Positions 156 through 54,713 of a stretch of DNA of 64,000 nt are shown piece by piece. Location: contig JAHLKI010000024.1 in the NCBI GenBank assembly GCA_025602905.1, positions 124,001-188,000 of the forward strand, in the 5' to 3' direction. Position 1 is the stretch's first letter. The number at the start of each line of letters is the position of its first letter. The stretch is from Phlyctochytrium arcticum. Lineage: Eukaryota > Chytridiomycota > Chytridiomycetes > Chytridiales > Chytridiaceae. The position numbers and the translations under genes were made by a program. A model generated the notes under the pieces. It did not search any database, had not been told where the DNA came from, and was given only the letters and a program-made list of their open reading frames with translations.

Positions 156-2021
156 ACAAGGACGAGTAACCAAGACTTTCCCACCATCATTTTTGGACCG
201 CGCTCGGAAGTAAACTTTTGTTTTATCATTTCTTTCAACCCTTGTTTTTTTGTTATTTGTTATATGTGTCTCCTCTGTTGGTGCGCTGGGCCGGATGCGA
301 TTCTTCTGACGACTCTTGGGTTTCTGAATCGGCGGGTCTTGGCGACGCTCTTGATTGGTGGGAAGGTGTCATCTCTCAGGATTCGGCTTCGCATCAAGCT
401 TATGCCACTCGTGGACCTGAGCCTTTGACTATTCAAGCAGCCCGAACCCTCCCCCTCCGCTTCTATGAAGTGTTCATGTACCTCCGAACTACATGTGTCG
501 TAGCCGACTTATATTGCCGTGATAACAACGGAAATCAGCAGCGAAGGTTGGAGACTAGAACAAAGAAGTACACACGGATTGTTAGATTGTCTGAGCCGAG
601 AGACACTTTATGTTCCGGCTAATGGTCAATTTGACTCTTCTGGTTACACACCTAGACAATACCCTTTAGGTTGCTTTGTTTTTGGATACGAAACTGGAAC
701 GGGTGACCGTGCGAATTTATCCTAGCCAAGCTAGCAGTTAGAGAGACAAAGGAACTGAAGCCCGGTGTTGCCTTATGGGAAAGCATGTTTGCCTACCTCG
801 AAAAACCCCATGAGTTTGGACTTTTTTGAGAACTTGTCTCGAAAGCGCGAAACGTTACGCGTAGTGCCCAAGATCCAACCGTTTCTACGAATTTGCCAAT
901 GCATAACAAGTTCAAGGGTGAACGCGATACGTTCATACCCAATGAAGCGAGGCAGCGGGGTTTTGTCAAACAAGTTCCGGGACAAGTTTTGGCGCAGACG
1001 TCGAATTTTTGGCCATTTTGACTATCCCGACCTGTCTCCGTGGCGAGAGAGGAACCGTCCCTTTTAATGGTAAGTATATATGCCACCGATCATTGGTAAA
1101 AAAAAGTGTGTATTCTAATGCTATACGAAACAGCGTCGCATTAAAAGCTTCGAAAACGCAGCAGATAATCGGAAAATGGCAACTTTTTGGGGGGTCCGAG
1201 TGAACAAGGATTACGTGTCTGCCCCCAGCCCGTCTACGACAGCCGCCTCGGATAATGCGGCAACAGTGGTTGCGAATCTATGCAAGGCAACACCTCCTCC
1301 CCACACCGTCACGACATTATATCAAAGCCAAATTCCCACCATCCGCAATCATCAACCCCGCGCAGACGCGCATCATTCGTCTTTTGTGCAGGCAGCTGAC
1401 GGATACACATGGTGACCTTGAGCGGCAATGACGAGTTTGGCCGATCACTGTTCTGGAAGGACGAGTTTGTAGAATCATTGAAATGGATTTCAAGATCAAC
1501 ACGACGAACGACGAACGACGACGACGACGACGACAAGTTTGTTGGGGTCATGCAATTCCAAATCATACCTGGTCTCGTCGCCCCCAAAATGCATCAAATG
1601 TCGTTTTATATAGTTATAGCTTTTCAAGAATTTTTTTTGGCAAGAAAAGTATTTGATCTAATAAGCTCAAATCCAGGAATGAACACTTTTTTCATAAAGC
1701 GTTTTTTACGCGTGAGAATCAAAAGCCGTATTTGGGTAACTTATGCTTGGGGATACAAACCACTATTTAGACTGCCCACTGCGAATATTGTCCCATTGCA
1801 TGTACTAGAATTTGACCAAATGATGTGCAGTACGGTAGTATTGGGAAAGAAGAGCCTTCATGACCGGGGTCTATTCCGATATGGTTGGTGGTGTGTATGT
1901 CTATGAGGTAGGTATTTTGGTTGTTGCGGCGCTGCTAGCTGGCTAATAACTTGCCGTTACGACTGATAGCCACAGAAGCGTCAAATATTGACATTATATA
2001 CACTTAGTATAGTAATCATTT
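156..2021. other. mostly non-coding stretch with one doubtful small gene
   Basis: About 1.9 kb between the left partial gene and the 3' end of folliculin. The only gene-like signal is on the + strand: a good intron (GTAAGTATATATG at 1070 to ACAG near 1133, with a CTAAT-type branch site) followed by an ATG at 1176 opening a 79-codon frame. It starts MATFWGVRV, which recalls the FWG start of nucleoplasmin-like domains, but the rest of the frame does not continue the similarity. An ACG/GAC-rich run (Asp repeats) lies near 1500-1530. The other short open frames look like noise. Confidence 0.3.
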
Positions 2022-4867
2022 TTACTCCCTGAGAATCGACCGGCGGTTATCCACCCCAATCCCCTTTATCCAAAACCTGAGCACACTCAAATCCCCTTCA
2101 GACACATTCAAACTCTTCATCAACACGTTCATGCGTCCCTGATCTGTCGCATGCCCGCTCTTGACAAATTTATAAAATATCTTGGCTTTGCTAAAAAAAT
2201 CAATTTTTGCAAAAATGTGAGTAAGAGTAAGAGGAGGAGGCTTAAAGATGGGAACTTTTACTTGAGCCAATTCTCTTTTAGTAATGTCCAGTGCACCCGG
2301 AGCATGGGTTCTGATAAGTGATGCTTCATGATCCGTTGGAGGTCTTTGATCAGAGTGCAATTTGATGCTGCTGCTTGGTGACTTGAATCTTCCTCATCGT
2401 CGGTTCGATTATGGAATGTGATGCTCATTTCATTACAGGTTCCTTTTTGATTTGTTTTCAGTTCTGCATATTGCGAGAGAGAGTTTTAGACTTTTTGTTT
2501 TTGCGGGAAAAAAAAGAGAGACACATACCCAACACAATATCAGGACTCGCATCACCCAGCGCCACTCGAGCCGACACTCCCAGCAAATTACATTCAAACG
2601 GCTGCACGTATTCTTCCCCCCACTCACTCGCCTGACAGCAATAACTCGGTAAAAACTGCTTCAAGTAAAATACCAAGCCCGACACGAGACCCCGGTCAAA
2701 CCCGACAATGACCACTTGATCGCCCGTGATGAGTTGGTACAGTAATTTGAGGAGGGCGCGATGACCTAATCCCGACTCTAAATGCGCCAGTTTCCAGTCG
2801 TCGTCAGTCTTCTCTGGTGGTGTAGTAGTCCCACCAGGTTGTTCAACAACACGTAAATCAGAGTTGAATGTTGCAGACTATTACTTTGTGATTTTAGTTT
2901 TTCTAATCGAGTTTTGCAACAAATGAACTGTATAACGGACCATATTCCGACCCTCGGCATGGGTCTCTCGGACTCTGACCACATACGCCTTCAAAGTCCA
3001 CGCAAACGTTGAATGCAATCCCATCGCCAGATTCTGCATTAGTGTGGTTAGCCTCAATTCCTAGGACCACCCCCACACATCCCTCATCCATCCAATCAAA
3101 CCAACCGAGTCACTGAATACAACGCAATACTCCTCCTCATAAATGACTTTTGCTAGACCCCGAACCGCGCTCCCGCTCGCCAATTTTCCCTCGCCCTCGC
3201 TTGCGCTCTGGCTTCGGGAAAGTTGTCTCTCTCGCGCGGGCCCTCCTCGCCCTAAAGGGCTCGGGGTCGTCATAAATGACGTTTGCTAGACCCCGAACCG
3301 CGCTCCCGCTCGCCAATTTTCCCTCGCCCTCGCTTGCGCTCTGGCTTCGGGAAAGTTGTCTCTCTCGCGCGGGCCCTCCTCGCCCTAAAGGGCTCGGGGT
3401 CGTCATAAATGACTTTTGCTAGACCCCGAACCGCGCTCCCGCTCGCCAATTTTCCCTCGCCCTCGCTTGCGCTCTGGCTTCGGGAAAGTTGTCTCTCTCG
3501 CGCGGGCCCTCCTCGCCCTAAAGGGCTCGGGGTCGTCATAAATGACTTTTGCTAGACCCCGAACCGCGCTCCCGCTCGCCAATTTTCCCTCGCCCTCGCT
3601 TGCGCTCTGGCTTCGGGAAAATTGTCTCTCTCGCGCGGGCCCTCCTCGCCCTAAAGGGCTCGGGGTCGTCATAAATGACGTTTGCTAGACCCCGAACCGC
3701 GCTCCCGCTCGCCAATTTTCCCTCGCCCTCGCTTGCGCTCTGGCTTCGGGAAAATTGTCTCTCTCGCGCGGGCCCTCCTCGCCCTAAAGGGCTCGTCGGG
3801 ATTCCTCCCCCGTCGCTTCGCTCGGGGTCGTCATAAATGACTTTGCTAGACCCCGAAATGCCTCGCTTCGCTCGGCGTCTCCCTCGCTTCGCTCGCATTT
3901 GATTTTGCTTCGCAAAATCGTTAGCGCCCATCCATTTTTCCTCCGGAAAAATGTCTGGGCCAGCCCTCGCTACGCTCGGGGCCCTCCTCGCCCTACGGGC
4001 TCGTCGGGATCGCTCGGGGGCGTCATAAAACTCACCGACGTATCCGTCAAAACCGGCAAAGACCTCAACGCCTGATTTCCGCGTCTCCGCAAAAAATGTT
4101 CGGGCGATGACGGGGCAAACGACGATTGTTGACGATAGAGCATGGGATCCGTCGAATCGAAATGAACGCGTTCGTTTCCAAACAGTTTCTCGGCTTTTTG
4201 GTATAATTCTCCTGCCACTGCTCTAAATTTACTGTTTTCAAAAAGCTGTCATTATCACATATAAATGCGAGGAACGTTTAAACAAAAAAAACAAAACCTG
4301 ATGAGAAACGGCCAACTCGCGACCAAAAAACTCTTGTCATCGCCCATAAACAACAGACTGTACCAGCGTTGGAAACCCCTAGCCTGGGAATCCCGGATTT
4401 TGAAGAGGTAGGATAGGACACATCCGTTTGTATCGTCTCCAAAGAGAATGGGGCCTTCCCTTCCCGGACAGAATTCGCAGCTGAGGGATTGGACACAGGC
4501 TTGGCGGAGGAGAGAGTAGGTGGAGGGCTGGAAGGGGTATCGTCCTAGATTTTTATTTTAGCGTTGAGCGTTGAAGTATAAAGTATTGATGCTTGATGTT
4601 ACCGGAAATGAACGTAGGCCCATCATCATCCCCCCATTGTGTGATAAACTGTGTGTCCACGGATCCAAGCGTACACCCCGAACACGCCGCCTTACTACTA
4701 CTCCTATGCTGCTGCTGCTGCAGGGTATCGGGTCTCTCCTTATCGTCTGGGGCCTTGTCGTTGTCGTTGTCGTTGTCCAGGGTATAAACGGGCTGAGTAC
4801 AGAATACGAGTGCGGGCCCGTGAATCTCGCAAAAGACTGCGAGAGCTATACACGAGTCTACCGACAT
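2022..4867 (-). CDS. FLCN: folliculin (FLCN/Lst7 family)
   Basis: Folliculin is the GTPase-activating subunit that acts with FNIP/Lst4 on Rag GTPases at the lysosome or vacuole in nutrient signalling to TORC1. The exon pieces read in order match the family: N-terminal FCEIHGPALVFCTQP (4.8 kb), CEFCPGREGPILFGDD then ARGFQRWYSLL and FLVASWPFL (4.5-4.3 kb), a helical stretch ending LTDTS (4.2-4.04 kb), NLAMGLHSTFAWTLKA (3.03 kb), a DENN-like part with GDQVVIVGF and FECNLLGVS (2.8-2.5 kb), LLKENWLK, and the C-terminal AKIFYKFV..SVLRFWIKGIG before TGA at 2022. About seven exons; the junction near 2.9-2.8 kb was not resolved. The LTDTS/NLAM junction spans a 1002-bp intron (3034-4035) filled by a palindromic repeat element, far longer than the usual introns here. 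Shares its promoter region with the phosphatidylserine synthase gene. Confidence 0.93.
3034..4035 (-). repeat. giant FLCN intron filled with palindrome-mosaic element
   Basis: Intron of 1002 bp with donor GTGAGT (minus strand, from 4035) and acceptor ..TAATGCAG (ending 3034); phase 0 on both sides. It is built of short self-complementary modules: ATTTTTCC-GGA-GGAAAAAT, a GATTTTGC..GCAAAATC stem (3901-3919), CGAGCGAAGCGAGG strings, GCCC-TTTA-GGGC, and CAATTTTCCC..GGGAAAATTG. Its 3' part (3082-3137) is a non-palindromic tail that recurs almost unchanged in the last intron of the neighbouring synthase gene. The whole element reads in the sense direction of FLCN. Confidence 0.9.
3138..3831. repeat. 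133-bp tandem array (4 full units plus one 162-bp unit)
   Basis: Units begin at CATAAATGAC at 3138, 3271, 3404, 3537 and 3670: an exact 133-bp period. The fifth unit (3670-3831) has a 29-bp insertion. Units differ at only one or two sites (GACTTTT/GACGTTT and AAAGTTG/AAAATTG), so the expansion looks recent. Each unit holds a long stem, CAATTTTCCC with GGGAAAATTG, and a GCCC-TTTA-GGGC hairpin. The array lies wholly inside the FLCN intron. Confidence 0.95.
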
Positions 4868-5483
4868 GTTTGTTTATGGGAGGGTCATGATGATGTGCTT
4901 TGGTGATTTTGTCGGTCGATCGATGAGGAACGAACGACGGGGAGGGTTGGGTGGTTGGGTGCTATAGGAGCCCCGACGTTGCGCCAAGTTCGTATATATA
5001 GGCCACTGTCCAAGTGAGTAGTTCCTCGCAAGGAAACGTTTGTGCGAAACTCGGATCGGAATTCACCGGGAGTCCAACAAGGGCCAGACCCGGGCTCACC
5101 CGACACTCTCATGTTTGAGCGAGCATTGATTGATATATTGAGCCTTGAGCCTTGAATCTGGCTCTTCATTCTTGGGTTATAACATCTCTGAGTCTCTGAG
5201 TCCCCATGAGCCCCAAAAGTCTCGGCCAGGAAAGACCCGGGTTCTACAGCTGTAGTCTCGGAGCAAGTCGGGAAGCCAAGGATGGTGCGCGTCATCACTT
5301 TCCCCATGCTGCCTGCCTCTCGTTGCTCGGTGCTCGGTGCTCTTTCGTTCTCCGTTAGCTCTGCCCCCTGCCCTGCCCTGCCCTGCTAGGTAAATCCCAA
5401 GATATATTCTATCCCGGACCGTAGGCTCCCGTAGACACTCAAACTCTCATATACACTCTAAACGAACGATAACCACACACAAG
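4868..5483. promoter_or_regulatory. shared promoter region between FLCN and phosphatidylserine synthase
   Basis: 616 bp between two divergently transcribed start codons (FLCN ATG at 4867 on minus; synthase ATG at 5484 on plus). It holds a short CCTGC tandem repeat near 5364-5387. No specific factor site could be assigned with confidence. A 140-codon open frame on the minus strand here has no family features and is taken as chance. Confidence 0.55.
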
Positions 5484-7382
5484 ATGGCCGGCGCAACAAA
5501 ACGCTCGACCGTCGCAGCCGCCAAACAGGCAGTCTCAGACGCCGTATCAGACGCCAAAGAGACTCTCCACGACATCAACAAGGACAAACCCCGCCATTTC
5601 TCCATGATGCGTCAATTCGTTCTCGCCGATTTTGTCACGCTTTGTAATTCGGCGTAGGACTTTCTTTCTTTCCCGCTACGACTGTTCATTGCGTGAAACT
5701 AACAAGATTAACTCAAAGATCCGGCTCAACATCCATCTTTGCTTCTTTGAAATACGTCACGACTGGAAACCCATGGTTTCTCTATGCCGCCGTCTTGCTT
5801 CTTCCCGCTGCTCTCGCTTTTGATGCCATGGATGGGTACTATACTTTTCTCTTTTTTTTTTTGTTCATGTCACATTTTTACTGATTGTTGATTAGACGCG
5901 TCGCCAGATGGGCTCAATCTGCTTCGCCCATGGGCAGAGAATTGGATTCTCTGGCTGATATCATCTCATTTGGTGTGGCTCCTGCTGTCTTGGGGTGAGT
6001 ACGCGTGAGAGTAGAGTGTTTGAGCCCGAGCGAAGCGAGGGCTGGCCCAGACATTTTTCCGGAGGAAAAATGGATGGGCGCTAACGATTTTGCAAAGCAA
6101 AATCAAATGCGAGCGAAGCGAGGGAGACGCCGAGCGAAGCGAGGCATTTCTTGGCCCAAAGGAAAAATGGATGGGCGCGGACGATTTTGCAAAGCAAAAT
6201 CAAGTGCGAGCGAAGCGAGGGAGACCAATTTTTTGCGAAGCAAAATCACATGCGAGCGAAGCGAGCTCAAAGAGATACTGACCAAGCTCCGCAAGGAGCG
6301 AGGAACAAAGATATTTTGCGGAGCAAAATCAATACGCGTTTCACACATAGGTGCAACAATACGACGACCCCGAGCGTAAGCGAGGGGGAGGAGCTAGAGT
6401 TTCTATGTATTCTGCAATTATGGTTTGGAGTGGATGATGGGATGGAGTGGATGGGATGAAGTATATGGAACTGAACTGACTCTATATGAATATATAGGTT
6501 TGCGATTGGCCTGCAAGGTCTATTTGATGTCGCCATCCTACTCTACTTTGTCAATTGCGGTGTCTCCCGTTTGGCCCGGTACAATGTGACGGCCGAAGGG
6601 AATGCGGTGAATGGCAAAGTCCACTTTTTCGAGGGGACTCCCATCCCAACCACCGTCGGCATTGCCCTGGGGATTCTGTACTTTATTCACAATGGACAGT
6701 TTGGGGATTTGATGCTTCCGGGTGGTAAATACATTTTCTTTGGCTGGACTTTTCATGTGAGTATCGCGGAGTGAGGGCTGGCCCAGACATTTTTCCGGAG
6801 GAAAAATGGATGGGCGCTAACGATTTTGCGAAGCAAAATCAAATGCGAGCGAAGCGAGGGAGACGCCGAGCGAAGCGAGGCATTTCGGGGTCTAGCAAAA
6901 GTCATTTATGACGACCCCGAGCCCTTTAGGGCGAGGAGGGCCCGTGCGAGCGAGACAATTTTCCCGAAGCCAGAGCGCAAGCGAGGGCGAGGGAAAATTG
7001 GCGAGCGGGAGCGCGGTTCGGGGTCTAGCAAAAGTCATTTATGAGGAGGAGCATTGCGTTGTATTCACTGACTCGGTTGGTTTGATTGGATGGATGAGGG
7101 CTGCGTTGTATTCACAGACTCGGTTGGTTTGATTGGATGGATGAGGATGGACAGAAGGATGATGGGGCGAGGAGCATGTGTTTTCTATAAAGACTCGAAT
7201 GGTTTTGAGGGATGGACAGAAGGATGATGGGGCGAGGAGCATTTGAATAGAGTGTGATGGGTTGAATGCACACAAGAGACTAACCACCCTTACTTGTTCA
7301 TGTTATACAGCCATTCGTTCTGGTCTACGCCATTAGCGGTACACTCCAAATCAGCAAGACGATTCGGATCCCCAAACCTTAG
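5484..7382 (+). CDS. CHO1: CDP-diacylglycerol-serine O-phosphatidyltransferase (phosphatidylserine synthase)
   Basis: Membrane enzyme that makes phosphatidylserine from CDP-diacylglycerol and serine, in the ER. Exons 5484-5653, 5719-5835, 5896-5994, 6498-6756 and 7311-7382 sum to 717 nt, giving 238 residues, close to the fungal Cho1 size. The CDP-alcohol phosphotransferase signature D-x2-DG-x2-AR-x8-G-x3-D-x3-D is complete at about residues 92-117 ([19 protein letters not shown]), split by intron 2. Hydrophobic segments such as [16 protein letters not shown] and the partly hydrophobic stretch [16 protein letters not shown] fit several membrane passes. Introns 1 and 2 are about 60 bp, but introns 3 (5995-6497, 503 bp) and 4 (6757-7310, 554 bp) are swollen by the palindromic element also found in FLCN. 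The last exon encodes only 23 residues plus stop. Confidence 0.95.
6025..6390 (+). repeat. palindrome-mosaic element in synthase intron 3
   Basis: Lies about 30 bp after the GTGAGT donor at 5995 and in the sense direction of the gene. It has the same modules as the FLCN intron: ATTTTTCC-GGA-GGAAAAAT near 6052, GATTTTGC-AAA-GCAAAATC (6086-6104), GCGAGCGAAGCGAGG strings, then further degraded copies (TTTTTTGC-GAA-GCAAAATC near 6230, ATTTTGC-GGA-GCAAAAT near 6312). It lacks the 133-bp unit and the common 3' tail, so it looks older or truncated. Confidence 0.85.
6771..7099 (+). repeat. palindrome-mosaic element in synthase intron 4, full-length type
   Basis: Starts about 14 bp after the GTGAGT donor at 6757. 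It runs through the GGA-loop hairpin (6789-6807), the GATTTTGC-GAA-GCAAAATC hairpin (6822-6840), one copy of the 133-bp unit (about 6909-7041), and the same 3' tail as in FLCN (7041-7099; TTGCGTTGTATTCA, then GACTCGGTTGGTTTGATTGG). Module order equals that of the FLCN intron read in FLCN's own sense direction. Confidence 0.92.
7100..7245 (+). repeat. decaying tandem copies of the element tail
   Basis: After the element tail, a second copy of its last ~46 bp follows at 7100-7145 (TGCGTTGTATTCACAGACTC..). Then comes a further 65-bp period repeat: GATGGACAGAAGGATGATGG with its continuation at 7146-7177 and again at 7211-7242. FLCN's intron has only one tail copy, so this is local expansion after insertion. 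Confidence 0.85.
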
Positions 7383-9791
7383 AGAGAGAGTTTGTATATC
7401 AACATTCAATGCATATATATCCCCCGTGCTGTTTTCGAAAATACAGTTTTTGTAACGATTCAAGTTTATGTTTTTTTTAGACACTTTGGCATACATTTTT
7501 TCAAAAGAGTATCCCTGCTTTCCAACTTTTTTGCTGAATTTCTTACCAGTAACGCCTGCTTCCTGTCTTTCCACCGAGTCCCTTCCCATATTTTTCCTGA
7601 CCTTCTGTCCCAATCTGTGTACAAATTAGTACGCCCTGTTTGTTCAGTTTTAATAAAACCGGCTAGGGTTCTGTCATGCTATCCTCCGGAGATTCCTCCG
7701 CTATAATTCTTTTTGACCTCACTTTTTTACCCACCCACCCCTTCACTTCTCTTCCTTGTGTGTCCCGTCCTGTCCTGTTCTTTCCGATTTAATGTCTACC
7801 ATGATGCCTCCTTTCCAGCCTGTTTTATGCCCTGAAACGGTATTTCTTGGGATTGTCATTCTTTCGACCGTTCCTTTGTTACCCTCACACTTCCCGATCT
7901 CCTGTCATGACTGCTTTTTACTTTCCCCAGTCCGTCAAACTACCTTTTCCCCCACTTCTCTTTGGCTATTTCCTGTCTACGCCCGCTTTGTTCATAATCC
8001 CATTCGCTAATTGTGCCAAGACCTTTAAGCTCTTTCTGTTCTGGGCACTCCTAGCTACAAGTTTCTTTTTGTTTCTTTCTGTCTGGGAGATCTGACTTTT
8101 CGGCAGCTAAACCTTGCTTTAACATATTCGCAGTCCTATTCATCTGCTCGATCTGTCTGGCAGATTAAACAATCCACAGACTTCTCCATTCTCGGGCTGT
8201 TGCTTATTCTTCTCTTCCCACACTTTCTGTCCTGTCCTGTCCTTTGTGCTTATCCGTACTCGGGATGAGTAGTACAATTTGTATTGTCTTGCTTCCTTCT
8301 GCTCCTTTGTTTCCTATTTGGGCTGTCCTGTGACTCTAGCTAATCGGTCGGATGTTGCTGTCCTTGAATTGCACTATCTCGCAGATTATACTACGTTCTT
8401 TTTGCCTGAGTAGCCTGGCCAACATTACCTGCTATTTTTTCTCTTTGAACCCCGCCGTTCCATTCGTTGTCTGTCTAGAAATCTATCATATTCATCTCTT
8501 CCTCCAGGCTTCTACCCATTTGCTGACCGCCAATTACTTCATTCCCCCCTGTTTCCTGGATGCTGTCCGTAGACGGTTGCTACTTCTGTAGCCAACGGTG
8601 GAGCCATGCTTTCTTTCCAATTTTGCCCGTTTTATACATCTGCTCCGTCTGTCTGGCAGATTGAACCTCTGCGTATATTTTGTTTCCACCCGTTCTATGC
8701 TGTCCTTTGTTCTTATCCCCAAAAAAACGAGGCTGTTTTCTTATATGGGCTTTCCCATCTTTCTGCATGATCTGTCCATAGACTTGATTCTATACGTCAG
8801 CTCCGTCTGTCTGGCAGATTCGTGAGACTTCGGTCGCGTCTTCCCACACTTCCTGTGCTGTCCTTAGGCTTATTCCTTGACTGTACTCAGGTTGACAGCA
8901 GTTTCATTTCGTATGTAGACTCAGCCTTCTGATCTTTTCATCCCTATTGAGGCTCTTTTACTCTTCATCCTTTTACGATACTTTTTAGTATTTCTTCTCA
9001 CTGCCTCTGTTGGCGCGATTCCACTCCCCTAATATCGTCTACCCTGAACCTTTGTTGGAATGATCTCTCTGATTCGCTCTTTCTTAAGACGATTTCCTTT
9101 TTTAGTTGCTTTCTGTACGCGTCCAATGTACAGTACTCCTTTGGGCCTCGCGCGGCTGACTCCTCTAACGTTGTCTACCAAGAACTTTTGTTGGATTGAC
9201 CTCTCTGTTTCCTTAGCTCTTTTACTTTTACTACCTCTTTTGACTGTACAGGCCAACATTCTGGTGAATGAGACCCAAGCACTGCTAGCACTGTTACTTT
9301 TTCTGACTCTTTTTCTTTTGCTAGCTCTTTTAGCTGTTTGCGCGGAAGCGCACCGTCTACTTGTATACATTCATTCAGAGGGAAAAAAAACTGAGTTTAC
9401 GCATACATGACTGAAGGATGCATATTAGAGCTGTTGCATCCAGCATACGGGTATATCTCATGTACTCAAGTTTGAGAAGACATCCGGGTATATACTGTCG
9501 CTACATCAGAGAGAACAAAAGTCATCTATATTCCTGTCTTGACGCAAGTTCTGCACCCATTTCTCTCGGCGGTGGCGGCGGCCGATGTTTCTTCTTCCTT
9601 TTTCTTTTTGGTCACGGCGTCAATCTATCCATATAGGTGATCTTCAACAACTGACAGATGGTGAGAGAATCGTTCGTCGCGCCAAAAGAACTGGCATCAC
9701 GTGGATCCAAAGACAGCGAAGCAGCGCGAAACCGAAACGAAATACGGAAATTGTTTGGCATGTTAGATCCCGCAAACTAAAAACTCCGAGA
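7383..9791. other. 2.4-kb pyrimidine-rich stretch with degenerate repeats, no gene recognised
   Basis: The + strand is strongly T/C-rich from about 7460 to 9640. Long open frames occur on both strands, but none shows a domain, good codon use or splice pattern. It holds decayed repeats: a ~30-bp unit with core TCTGTCTGGCAGATT at 8141-8170, 8638-8667 and 8796-8827; CTTCCCACAC followed by CTGTCCTT near 8213 and 8842; and a ~135-bp period pair (GTCTACC..GAAC.TTTGTTGGA) near 9038 and 9172. It may be a dead mobile element or an untranslated transcription unit; the sequence does not decide. Confidence 0.6.
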
Positions 9792-31382: not shown

Positions 31383-31704
31383 TAGCGGCCGTGGATCCCC
31401 CAGCAGCCATCTCAGTTTGACAGTTCTTTCGGCACGCCCGCTTCTTTTGCGGCCTGTGCACTACTGCCCCCCCAAACTGCTAGCCCTGCCCACAAGTGGA
31501 TGCCCCACCTATGTTACAGTTGGCATATCAGACTTGCAAAGCATCGCGGCCATGGATCCCCCAGCAGCCATCTCAGTTTGACAGTTCCATCGGCACGCCG
31601 GGCATCTCTTTCAGCCTGTGCACTACTGAGCCCTCCCAAACTGCTAGCTCCGCCCACAGATGGATCCCCCACCTGTGTTTTGCAAGTTTGGATCAAAACT
31701 ACCG
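31383..31704. repeat. 161-bp tandem duplication
   Basis: Two adjacent copies, starting GCGGCC[G/A]TGGATCCC at about 31386 and 31547, share CCCAGCAGCCATCTCAGTTT, GTGCACTACTG and CCCAAACTGCTAGC in the same order, with scattered differences. The second copy overlaps the 3' end of the minus-strand open frame at 31699-32298. It separates that frame from the nuclease-like gene. Confidence 0.9.
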
Positions 31705-47338: not shown

Positions 47339-47432
47339 GCTCCGGTGGCCTAGTGGTTTTAAGGCGTCGTACTTATAAGGATGAACTCTTTATGCCATGC
47401 GAAATACGCGGGTTCGATCCCCGCCCGGAGCA
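47339..47432 (+). tRNA. trnI(UAU): tRNA-Ile(UAU) with intron, left copy
   Basis: Acceptor stem GCTCCGG pairs with CCGGAGC, followed by a 3' A. D stem GCC/GGC, anticodon stem TCGTA/TGCGA, loop CTTATAA with anticodon TAT, and T arm GCGGG-TTCGATC-CCCGC. About 20 nt (GGATGAACTCTTTATGCCA region) sit between the anticodon loop and the 3' half of the anticodon stem, as in intron-containing tRNA-Ile(UAU). A and B box sequences are intact. A run of T follows from 47435 as a Pol III stop. Confidence 0.95.
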
Positions 47433-47573
47433 GGCTTTTTTTTTGTTTTATTCTACATCCCTGAACCTCCCCCAAGTCGATTGCTGTGGGTCCTGAGGTC
47501 GTGGGGTGTGTTTTGAGGTCTGTGGATATGTTTTTGTCAACGGGAACGCGGTCGAAACAAGCGAAAATATTTC
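47339..47573 (+). repeat. left arm of a ~240-bp inverted repeat starting at tRNA-Ile
   Basis: From the first base of the tRNA to about 47573 the sequence matches the reverse complement of 54474-54713. Outside the tRNA, shared blocks include GTCGATTGCTGT (47476-47487), TTTTGAGGTCTGT, GTTTTTGTCAAC, GGAACGCGGT and AAACAAGCGAAAA with ATATTTC. Upstream of the tRNA the two copies are unrelated. Confidence 0.92.
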
Positions 47574-48639
47574 AAAAAAGTGTGTAGCACAGTCGTAATG
47601 GGGAGGGGAGGAGGATGGATGTGAGCAAGTTCCTTCCTCGGGATATCATACTACAGTAGTTGGCTACGTTGTTAGCTTCACATCGAGGATACCTTGCTAT
47701 CTACGACTAGTACTATCCATTCGCTGGGGGGTTTGAACTGGGCCGGCCACTGGACTGTCATGACTGCGCACTTCATCGCGTACTGCGCTTTCGGTTTTTC
47801 GTAGTGGCTCGCCCAACTTTTACGGCAATTTTGATTTTATTGTTTCTTTAAACCATTTAGCCATTCGTCCTGATGGGCACGGATGATAATTTACTCGAGA
47901 GACTACAGGGCTCATTCTCTGGTATTTGATTCTATTGGATTCACACCCAAGTTGCGCTCAGCGTTTGTCATCGCCTGCATTTCGGCTAGGTCCGCGCAAG
48001 CAGCGTACGACCTGTGAGTATCTAGATCATTTCTTCTCGATTTCATGTTGGGAATACAAGTTTGGCGAAGGAGTGCTTTTGTCCAGACACACGACAGTCC
48101 CATGGCCTATTTCCACTGGGCCAGCGACTGTTGTACTCATTTTAGATACCCTCTGTGCTAAACGCCGGAACACTGCAGCATATTGTCGGGACATTCACTG
48201 ACCTGGGATGTTTATCATCCAGATGAACCTGTTTTTTCTTTCTCGATCGCTGTCTTGGGGGTGGCCTGGGGGTGGTCTTTTGCGCGTATATATTCGAGTG
48301 CTTCATCATCGATTTTTACGACAATAGTGATGTCGGGATGCTAGAGTAAGAAAATGGACTACAAACCCGATGCAATAGATGCGCGGCTCTTGGGTGTTAC
48401 AATATCATGAGCTGCATTAGCGATATCTGCATCAAGTCGTAGAGTCTGTTCGTATGGGTCTCTGGAGCACTGTGCGACTGTGCCACATGTCATGACCAAT
48501 CAGCAATCGTTACTGAGGATGTCACCAACGCTGTGGTTGCTATTTTTAGTCTTTTGACACCTTTGATCTGACACCCCACATCAAGCTTTCCTGTCAAATT
48601 ATAGAATCGAACAAAGAAAAGGTCAAAAAAGAACCGTTC
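47574..48639. other. inside the tRNA-flanked segment, no gene recognised
   Basis: About 1.07 kb between the left arm and the tandem repeats. Several 60-110 codon frames occur without domain features. No RNA gene or repeat was identified. Confidence 0.35.
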
Positions 48640-49240
48640 AGCCCCGATCTTGTTACTTTCTCCTCTGTTCCTTCTCGCGCACGCCGACATTTTTGTTCCT
48701 ACTCGACAGCACCCTTCACACGCAGAATCAACAAACAGGACCGTCCCGCAGACATTATCGGTATGATGATCTTTTATACGTGGGCTTCTATTGAGATCTT
48801 GAGTTTCTGACAGTTTGGGGAGCATCGGGTTCCTACTTGCAACACGCCGAGCTCGGTTTTACTTGCGCACACCGATCTCTCTTCTACTCGACAGCACCCG
48901 CACGCGCAGAATCAACACGTCCCGCAGACATTATCGGTATGATGATCTGGGTGTTTTGATACATGAGCTTCTATTGATATCTTTATTTCTGACAGTTTGG
49001 TGAGCATCGGGTTCCTACTCGCAACACGCCCACGCCGAGCTCGGTTTTACTTGCACACCCTGATCTCTCTCCTACTCGACAGCACCCTCACGCGCAGAAC
49101 CAACAAGCAGGACCGTTCCGCAGACATTATCGGTATGATGATCTTTTGTGTCTTGATACGTAGTGCTTCTATTGATATCCTCTCACAGTTTAGGGAGCAT
49201 CGGGTTCCTACCCGCACCCACGCCGACGCCGACCCATCAC
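48640..49240 (+). repeat. ~180-195-bp tandem repeats before the unknown large gene
   Basis: Three copies, with a partial one in front. GCAGACATTATCGGTATGAT occurs at about 48748, 48923 and 49120, and GCATCGGGTTCCTAC at about 48822, 49003 and 49197 (spacings 181 and 194 bp). Each copy also carries CTACTCGACAGCACCC and CGCAGAA. In each copy the interval from GTATGATGATCT to CTGACAG or CTCACAG has the look of a 55-60-nt intron. Confidence 0.9.
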
Positions 49241-54413: not shown

Positions 54414-54473
54414 TCAATTAGCCACTTCCCCATTTCCGCGCTCGCCCATCTTGCCAGCCATTCCACCCATTTC

Positions 54474-54713
54474 GAAATATTTTTCGCTTGTTTGAACCGC
54501 GTTCCGGTTGACAAAAACACATCTACAGACCTCAAAAGTCACTCAAAAACATCGGGACCTACAGCAATCGACTCGGAGGGGGTAATAGTATTGGATAAAA
54601 ATAAAAAAAATAAAAAAGAATGCTCCAGGCGGGGCTCGAACCCGCGTATTTCGCATGGCATAAAGAGAACATCCTTATAAGTACGACGCCTTAACCAACT
54701 AGGCCACTGGAGC
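54474..54713 (-). repeat. right arm of the inverted repeat ending at tRNA-Ile
   Basis: Reverse-complement match to 47339-47573. Non-tRNA blocks include ACAGCAATCGAC (54561-54572) and GTTGACAAAAAC. It begins exactly at the tRNA 5' end, and the inner end lies about 60 bp from the Helitron remnant. Confidence 0.92.
54621..54713 (-). tRNA. trnI(UAU): tRNA-Ile(UAU) with intron, right copy
   Basis: On the minus strand: acceptor stem GCTCCAG/CTGGAGC plus A, D arm GCCTAGTTGGTTAAGGC, anticodon stem TCGTA/TGCGA with loop CTTATAA (anticodon TAT), an intron of about 20 nt, and T arm GCGGG-TTCGAGC-CCCGC. Compared with the left copy, the sixth acceptor pair is A-T instead of G-C, a compensated change, so both copies keep a working fold. 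T-rich runs follow as Pol III stop. Confidence 0.95.

Follow-up and report, generated by a model that had tools for sequence, protein, structure and literature searches.

A multi-copy family of hairpin-array introns with introner-like features in the chytrid Phlyctochytrium arcticum

Introduction

The introner-like elements of Capnodiales and the sister stwintrons of Hypoxylaceae, as portrayed in the parts of PMC8469720 and PMC9860276 available to us, are multi-copy introns of unrelated genes, functional on the coding strand only, without target-site duplication and with a strong internal symmetry or secondary structure. For these ascomycete introns reverse-splicing and R-loop models have been put forward (PMC8469720, same parts). 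Here we describe introns of Phlyctochytrium arcticum (Chytridiomycota in the NCBI taxonomy) that are alike in all these respects but differ from the ascomycete systems in other ways. They vary in length (281-1002 nt) and contain a mosaic of many mini-hairpins together with 133-bp units in tandem and a non-palindromic tail that they share, they belong to a chytrid, copies also lie in 3' flanks, and one copy occupies what seems to be an older intron site.

Introners of algae and other protists, such as Micromonas and Aureococcus, likewise form genome-wide families of similar introns that are enriched in genes (PMC9860276, available parts). Many algal and protist introners have terminal inverted repeats or target-site duplications, whereas no target-site duplication was seen in P. 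arcticum. A third likeness is with the double-hairpin elements of Allomyces mitochondria and the organelle palindromes of Volvox, which the available parts of PMC2670323 and PMC2800124 depict as short, nested hairpins with small loops in non-coding DNA or introns. In contrast to these, the arrays of P. arcticum stand in nuclear genes, are sense in every intron examined and are part of spliceosomal introns.

Among fungi, only Pezizomycotina are named with the introner-bearing groups in the available text of PMC9860276, an entry for a chytrid in its supplementary species tables being possible, and the available text of PMC8476143 reports no introners in chytrids. A literature search for P. arcticum together with introns found no paper.

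Results

Three long introns in a head-to-head gene pair

We analysed a 64-kb stretch of P. arcticum DNA, hereafter the window, in which a folliculin gene and a CDP-diacylglycerol-serine O-phosphatidyltransferase (PSS) gene form a head-to-head pair (Table 1). A sequence-only reading of the window had proposed one long intron in the former and two in the latter. The ends of all three were borne out, by the gene finder together with the NCBI proteins P0121 and P0001 for the first two and by the gene finder with orthologues for the third. The gene finder placed the PSS exons at 5484-5653, 5719-5835, 5896-5994, 6498-6756 and 7311-7382. Some of its other folliculin exons were wrong when compared with P0121, with which the long folliculin intron agrees. 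The segment 6757-7310 is taken as an intron too because the PSS proteins of Powellomyces and Fimicolochytrium go on as exon 7311-7382. Judged by protein continuity, with NCBI models for two introns and orthologue ends for the third, the three window introns appear to be spliced out. The public PSS protein P0001 itself runs past the 6757 donor and ends with FHVSIAE within the element intron (window 6757-6774). Element introns thus mislead annotation, since a public protein stops inside one.

Table 1. Host genes and parts of the element introns in the window.
Feature	Position	Strand	Evidence
Host gene 1, folliculin (FLCN)	2022..4867	-	Pfam Folliculin and Folliculin_C; NCBI protein P0121 (P. arcticum) maps here
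Folliculin element intron, 1002 bp, GTGAGT...TGCAG	3034..4035	-	gene finder and P0121 splice here
Donor-side hairpin array, folliculin: GGCCCAGACATTTTTCC-GGAAAAATGGATGGGCGC hairpin, GATTTTGC-GCAAAATC hairpin, GAGCGAAGCGAG modules	3842..4030	-	98-99% complementarity with 6025-6150 and 6766-6899
Tandem array of five 133-bp hairpin units, ~98-99% alike, folliculin	3134..3798	-	direct repeat family; self-BLAST
Conserved non-palindromic 3' tail (ATTGCGTTGTATTCAGTGACTCGGTTGGTTTGATTGGATGGATGAGG), folliculin	3075..3133	-	inverted repeat pairs; related tails in many other element introns
Likely branch point CTAAC, folliculin element intron	3047..3051	-	sequence; CTAAC enrichment in element introns
Host gene 2, PSS, 5 exons	5484..7382	+	Pfam CDP-OH_P_transf; P0001, P0002, P0005
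PSS element intron, 503 bp, GTGAGT...ATATAG	5995..6497	+	spliced in NCBI protein P0001; gene finder; RNA fold z = -5.1
Hairpin array, 503-bp PSS intron	6021..6400	+	direct repeats; printed sequence
PSS element intron, 554 bp, GTGAGT...ATACAG	6757..7310	+	gene finder; orthologue ends P0002, P0005; RNA fold z = -3.6
Hairpin array with one 133-bp unit, 554-bp PSS intron	6766..7047	+	inverted repeat pairs
Conserved 3' tail of the 554-bp intron, duplicated in tandem (copies 89% alike)	7045..7138	+	direct repeat
Likely branch point CTAAC, 554-bp intron	7280..7284	+	sequence; CTAAC enrichment

Anatomy of the element

Palindromic modules common to the three introns, each in the sense direction of its own host gene, were found where they had been noted, with repeats joining 3075-4030 to 6021-6400 and 6766-7140. 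They begin about 5-26 bp behind the donor and not 14-100 bp as first proposed. The folliculin intron and the second PSS intron had been credited with the same complete module order and a common tail. The tail is indeed part of their largest common block (3075-3297 and 6884-7106, 96% complementary over 223 nt), but the order of modules is not identical, because the folliculin intron has five near-identical tandem 133-bp units. When a library of the modules was BLASTed against the window, no match was found beyond 3075-7140. The window also holds other repeats elsewhere, namely an inverted pair at 47339-47577 and 54470-54713 (83% alike) and tandem arrays at 48674-49232 and 31385-31679.

The 31 element introns called across the genome (see below) have a common plan, which consists of a donor (GTGAGT or similar), the hairpin array, the tail, a purine-rich tract, the CTAAC branch point, and about 20 nt followed by ATAG. 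The array is made of a GGCCCAGACATTTTTCC-NNN-GGAAAAATGGATGGGCGC hairpin, a GATTTTGC-NNN-GCAAAATC hairpin and then GAGCGAAGCGAG modules, followed in many copies by a GGTGCAACAATACGACGACCCCGAGCGTAGCGAGGGGGAGGAGCATGCGTTTACTTACAGACTCGAATGGTTTGATGGATG-like segment, and the 133-bp unit is a second module set present in a subset of the introns. These 31 introns are 281-1002 nt long, and the length, order and copy number of the array vary widely.

Stems were constant while loops varied. Among 37 matches to the first hairpin the loops were GGA in 11, GAA in 8 and AAA in 8, and among 60 matches to the second they were CAAAG in 18, CGGAG in 17 and CGAAG in 13. In five copies the stem GATTTTGC..GCAAAATC carried a paired change to AATTTTGC..GCAAAATT. 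Versions with a GA-GCCCGAGCGAAGCGAGGGC-GA mini-hairpin in place of the loop accounted for 4 of the 37 first-hairpin and 6 of 14 third-hairpin matches; such loop-replacing mini-hairpins were seen in L015, L026, L049 and L046_4871, by eye in L016, and at 6960-6996 of the window. This suggests that mini-hairpins themselves may move into the loops of other hairpins. Conserved stems, variable loops and nesting of hairpins are also the features by which organelle double-hairpin and palindromic elements are recognised.

The constancy of the stems, with variable loops and some paired changes, would equally suit a functional RNA, regulatory or splicing-aiding, that is selected in certain introns and was spread by gene conversion and tandem duplication. 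The fold z-scores of two of the three window introns (Table 1) and the sense-only orientation described below agree with such a role, but good folding is to be expected of palindromic modules in any role, the host genes have no evident function in common, and the array varies widely as just described. An Rfam search with window positions 2000-8000 gave no match, and we consider a functional RNA improbable.

Copies in the genome, their location and orientation

We searched the genome of 31.48 Mb in 91 contigs. The segment 6766-7091 gave at least 84 matches at the DNA level. The 18-mer GGAAAAATGGATGGGCGC, allowing up to two mismatches, was found at 104 sites (37 + 67) as compared with 1 + 0 for the reversed control. 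A motif of the 133-bp unit occurred at 4 + 6 sites and a tail word at 13 + 10, each against 0 for its control, and a third word, GGTGCAACAATACGACGAC, was less specific with three mismatches (20 + 27 against 10 + 3). After merging of sites within 300 bp, 100 of the 104 sites made up at least 81 loci. The tail motif GACTCGAATGGTTTGATGGATG was also met without a listed 18-mer match nearby at C38:171682, C3:1622707, C8:805581, C21:392210, C51:7039-7110, C19:4982 and C3:72296, and these are possibly introns with other bodies.

Surroundings of 3 kb and 10 kb were taken, a simple home-made gene finder was trained on these same loci, and 42 copies in 32 regions were classified, these copies having been picked from the at least 81 loci by match score and contig order and not by gene context. 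Out of the 42 copies, 31 lay in called introns, and all 31 were sense to the host gene and none antisense. Two further intronic copies read by hand were also sense. The strong excess of sense copies in introns that the sequence-only reading had named as support was thus observed, and in orientation the result goes beyond what had been noted there. In the 21 larger regions introns account for 8.4% of all bases, or 14.7% if non-coding bases alone are counted, which gives p = 6.6e-25 and p = 1.3e-17, respectively, for the enrichment. Of the 31 introns, 25 were called both with the element masked and unmasked, and the other six (L014_198, L014_1213, L023, L024, L041 and C8b_2982) under just one of these settings; L020 and L044 represent one intron of a duplicated gene. 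A cruder masking, which missed two of the three window introns and was replaced by the rule that gives 31, had called 23 copies intronic, again all sense (23/23).

In one run 27 of the 31 introns fell in 25 predicted host genes. We scanned 19 of these genes against Pfam (leaving out L014, L019, L024, L032, L049 and the duplicate L020), and all 19 had a domain on the called strand, the domains being of assorted kinds. At C17:203-208 kb (L025, L021) adjoining genes of the alpha-amylase family and the alpha/beta hydrolases have three element introns between them. The former gene, we assume, resembles maltooligosyltrehalose synthase.

The remaining 11 of the 42 copies were outside called introns, so that confinement to introns holds within the window and not for the genome. 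In six of them the array is present and follows a stop codon, in the sense direction of the nearest gene, and the family is therefore intron-rich but not intron-confined. L037, L039 and L046_8129 lie 171, 143 and 188 bp past the stop. L046_4871, L032_6272 and C8b_1498 lie 15, 236 and 59 bp past it and, being located between convergent genes, are antisense to the farther neighbour (at 170, 335 and 173 bp); the 68-codon ORF upstream of C8b_1498 was recognised by eye and not called by the gene finder. The other five (L035, L036, two in L040, and L042) consist of short hairpins only. Three short, near-symmetric versions of the first hairpin, L036 4915-4984, L040 4890-4947 and L042 4907-4960, are ~25-100 bp from tRNA genes (Pro once, Ser twice).

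All copies examined were in nuclear gene regions. With their small loops and nested arrangement the short hairpins are similar to organelle palindromes (PMC2670323, PMC2800124, available parts), and nuclear copies of mitochondrial palindromic repeats could arise by transfer of organelle DNA, as proposed for Volvox. The Volvox repeats, however, are described in those parts as lying in both orientations and with organelle coding DNA, whereas here all 31 introns had the array in a single orientation relative to the gene, and they have the tail and the splice plan in common. Such an origin is very improbable.

Splice signals and ends of the element introns

For the comparison of splice signals we used 27 element introns and 168 ordinary introns, the latter including false calls of the gene finder. 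CTAAC was present in the last 45 nt of 21 element introns as against 24 ordinary ones (p = 6e-11), a GTGAGT donor in 12 as against 18 (p = 7.7e-5) and an ATAG acceptor in 15 as against 35 (p = 5e-4). Over the 25 nt before the branch point the purine share was 0.69 in element introns (26 of the 31) and 0.46 in 72 ordinary introns (p = 2.7e-8). At both ends, taken as the first 30 and the last 45 nt, element introns were nearer to one another than to ordinary introns (p = 3.5e-10 and 5e-7; 31 introns, without L020 and L024, with a different acceptor for C17b_1368, and with L051 and L052 added). At the 3' end ordinary introns with CTAAC were at least as alike among themselves as element introns (30.8 versus 27.9). 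Intron phase and exon borders did not differ significantly between element and ordinary introns.

In introners similarity is expected to reach near both splice boundaries (PMC9860276, available parts). With the duplicated ATPase pair set aside, 19 of 29 introns showed BLAST similarity to others that began no more than 20 nt from the donor. At the other end it reached the acceptor in 2 of 29, stopped 30-60 nt short of it in 16 and earlier still in 11. Extension into exons by more than 8 nt was limited to the duplicated ATPase pair and one weak pair (10 nt). The non-repeat remainder of the 31 introns had a median of 62 nt by a rough, motif-based estimate, as compared with 63 nt for ordinary introns.

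These ends bear on a strong rival to intron creation, in which a mobile hairpin repeat enters existing introns, in the gap between donor and branch point, as well as 3' untranslated regions, and creates no introns. In 27 of 29 introns similarity is lost before it reaches the acceptor, and the remainder of ~62 nt is the length of an ordinary intron, as if a normal intron had been entered just behind its donor. The six array-bearing 3'-flank copies point the same way. Against this, element introns are strongly different from ordinary ones in their splice signals and in the purine tract ahead of the branch point, a difference that might in turn come from long introns being selected for strong sites. 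Similarity that starts close to the donor, and intron ends nearer to one another than to ordinary introns, would also favour a unit that comprises the whole intron. The sense-only orientation would follow here from the mode of insertion or from purging of antisense copies, which are pyrimidine-rich and might provide cryptic acceptors. We regard such insertion as quite possible, if somewhat short of even odds.

The target-site duplications that the sequence-only reading had proposed to look for were not found in element introns. Words shared between the ends of the 31 introns had a mean of 4.84, which is not longer than the 4.72 of swapped introns, and in-register repeat runs at the ends of 27 introns were like those of ordinary introns. 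By eye, no terminal inverted repeats were present at the ends of the 31 printed introns.

Other long introns were considered as decayed members, but most of the 29 non-element introns above 150 nt had poor splice sites by eye and are probably errors of the gene finder. A search for a second, short introner family among the ordinary introns gave no convincing similarity. A longer pattern had 0 exact matches in viral contigs. As a horizontal trace, 12 exact matches of the 18-mer in bacterial genomes were not counted as evidence because about 7 were estimated by chance.

Intron gain or an older site

Genes that lack the intron, orthologues of this kind having been proposed as a check, exist as paralogues in two gene families, and in a third family an ordinary intron stands at the very same site. 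The element intron of the P-type ATPase family comes after residue 101. Here paralogues on C13, C17 and C16 read through the site without an intron and are collinear within two codons, and the paralogue on C7 also has no intron there but 14 extra codons. In an alignment made by eye, the C15 paralogue has an element intron of its own about two codons off, and a separate one stands near the start of the C17 paralogue. In the choline-transporter family two paralogues on C13 have no intron at the element site; they have an ordinary intron nine codons on that is absent from the element gene.

In contrast, the position of the element intron in L031 is taken in a GSK3 paralogue by an ordinary intron of 62 bp, between identical exon borders, and the L031 site therefore looks older than the element. 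The identity of this paralogue is 70-76% in two aligned stretches and 49% in a third. The GSK3-like paralogue L055 (C1:381480-381780) has an in-frame stop and is perhaps a pseudogene. No paralogue covering the element site was found in searches for the neurotransmitter symporter, GH9, the mechanosensitive channel and the alpha/beta hydrolase.

Taken as gene comparisons, the ATPase and choline-transporter families would favour intron gain and argue against insertion into existing introns, although their paralogues are old enough for intron loss, and the GSK3 family appears to show an older site, as such insertion would have it.

Clustering of copies

Based on the at least 81 loci, at least nine pairs of neighbours were less than 3 kb apart, against 0.6 expected. 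Five pairs are on opposite strands, all in the order minus then plus: C1 at 914/916 kb, C24 (in the window), C17 at 205/206 kb, C27 at 93/95 kb and C48 at 36/38 kb. A sixth such pair is at C8 916/917 kb. This order is the one expected of divergent gene pairs if the copies are sense, gene calls being available for C1, C8, C17 and C24 only. Neighbouring copies were sometimes, but not always, each other's closest relatives.

A further reading, which we hold to be unlikely, is a transcription-guided mobile array. Nested hairpins of the organelle type would have entered the nucleus and gained intron signals. They would now be restricted to transcribed DNA, where insertion would be into the coding strand alone, in introns as well as 3' untranslated regions, with a preference for spread between divergently transcribed neighbours. 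The location of three of the six 3'-flank copies between convergent genes slightly lowers the odds of this reading and of the introner-like one.

Discussion

The best reading of the element is an introner-like family of new architecture, built of stacked mini-hairpins. We put at about one half the probability that composite introns of ~280-1000 nt have multiplied as introner-like elements in unrelated nuclear genes of P. arcticum. Introners are known by many similar introns in unrelated genes and by coding-strand orientation. Here 31 similar introns were called, and all of these and the two read by hand were in the coding-strand orientation. The original suggestion of introners holds as far as the intronic, sense-only excess is concerned, and is weakened by the six array-bearing 3'-flank copies, by the lack of target-site duplications and by the mixed evidence on de novo intron creation. 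Such creation by the element is likely, though not proven.

In the introner-like reading, the unit that multiplies would run from near a GTGAGT-type donor through the mini-hairpin mosaic, the non-palindromic tail, the purine tract and CTAAC to ATAG some 20 nt on. New copies may arise by a transcript-strand route, either from excised intron RNA or at an R-loop that exposes the coding strand. The 3'-flank copies fit such a route and give a hint of it, in line with the reverse-splicing and R-loop models for the ascomycete introns, but they are few and half of them are ambiguous. In introns, the sense orientation can be explained by splicing alone. The hairpins may shield the RNA or may serve as the unit of recombination. 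Once in a gene body, a copy would be spliced as an intron.

How new introns originate is an old open question, and this element could help to show it. A family that occurs in an early-diverging zoosporic fungus, in introns as well as in 3' flanks, could separate two hypotheses that are usually confounded, namely that orientation is set by the need for splicing and that it is set by the mechanism of insertion.
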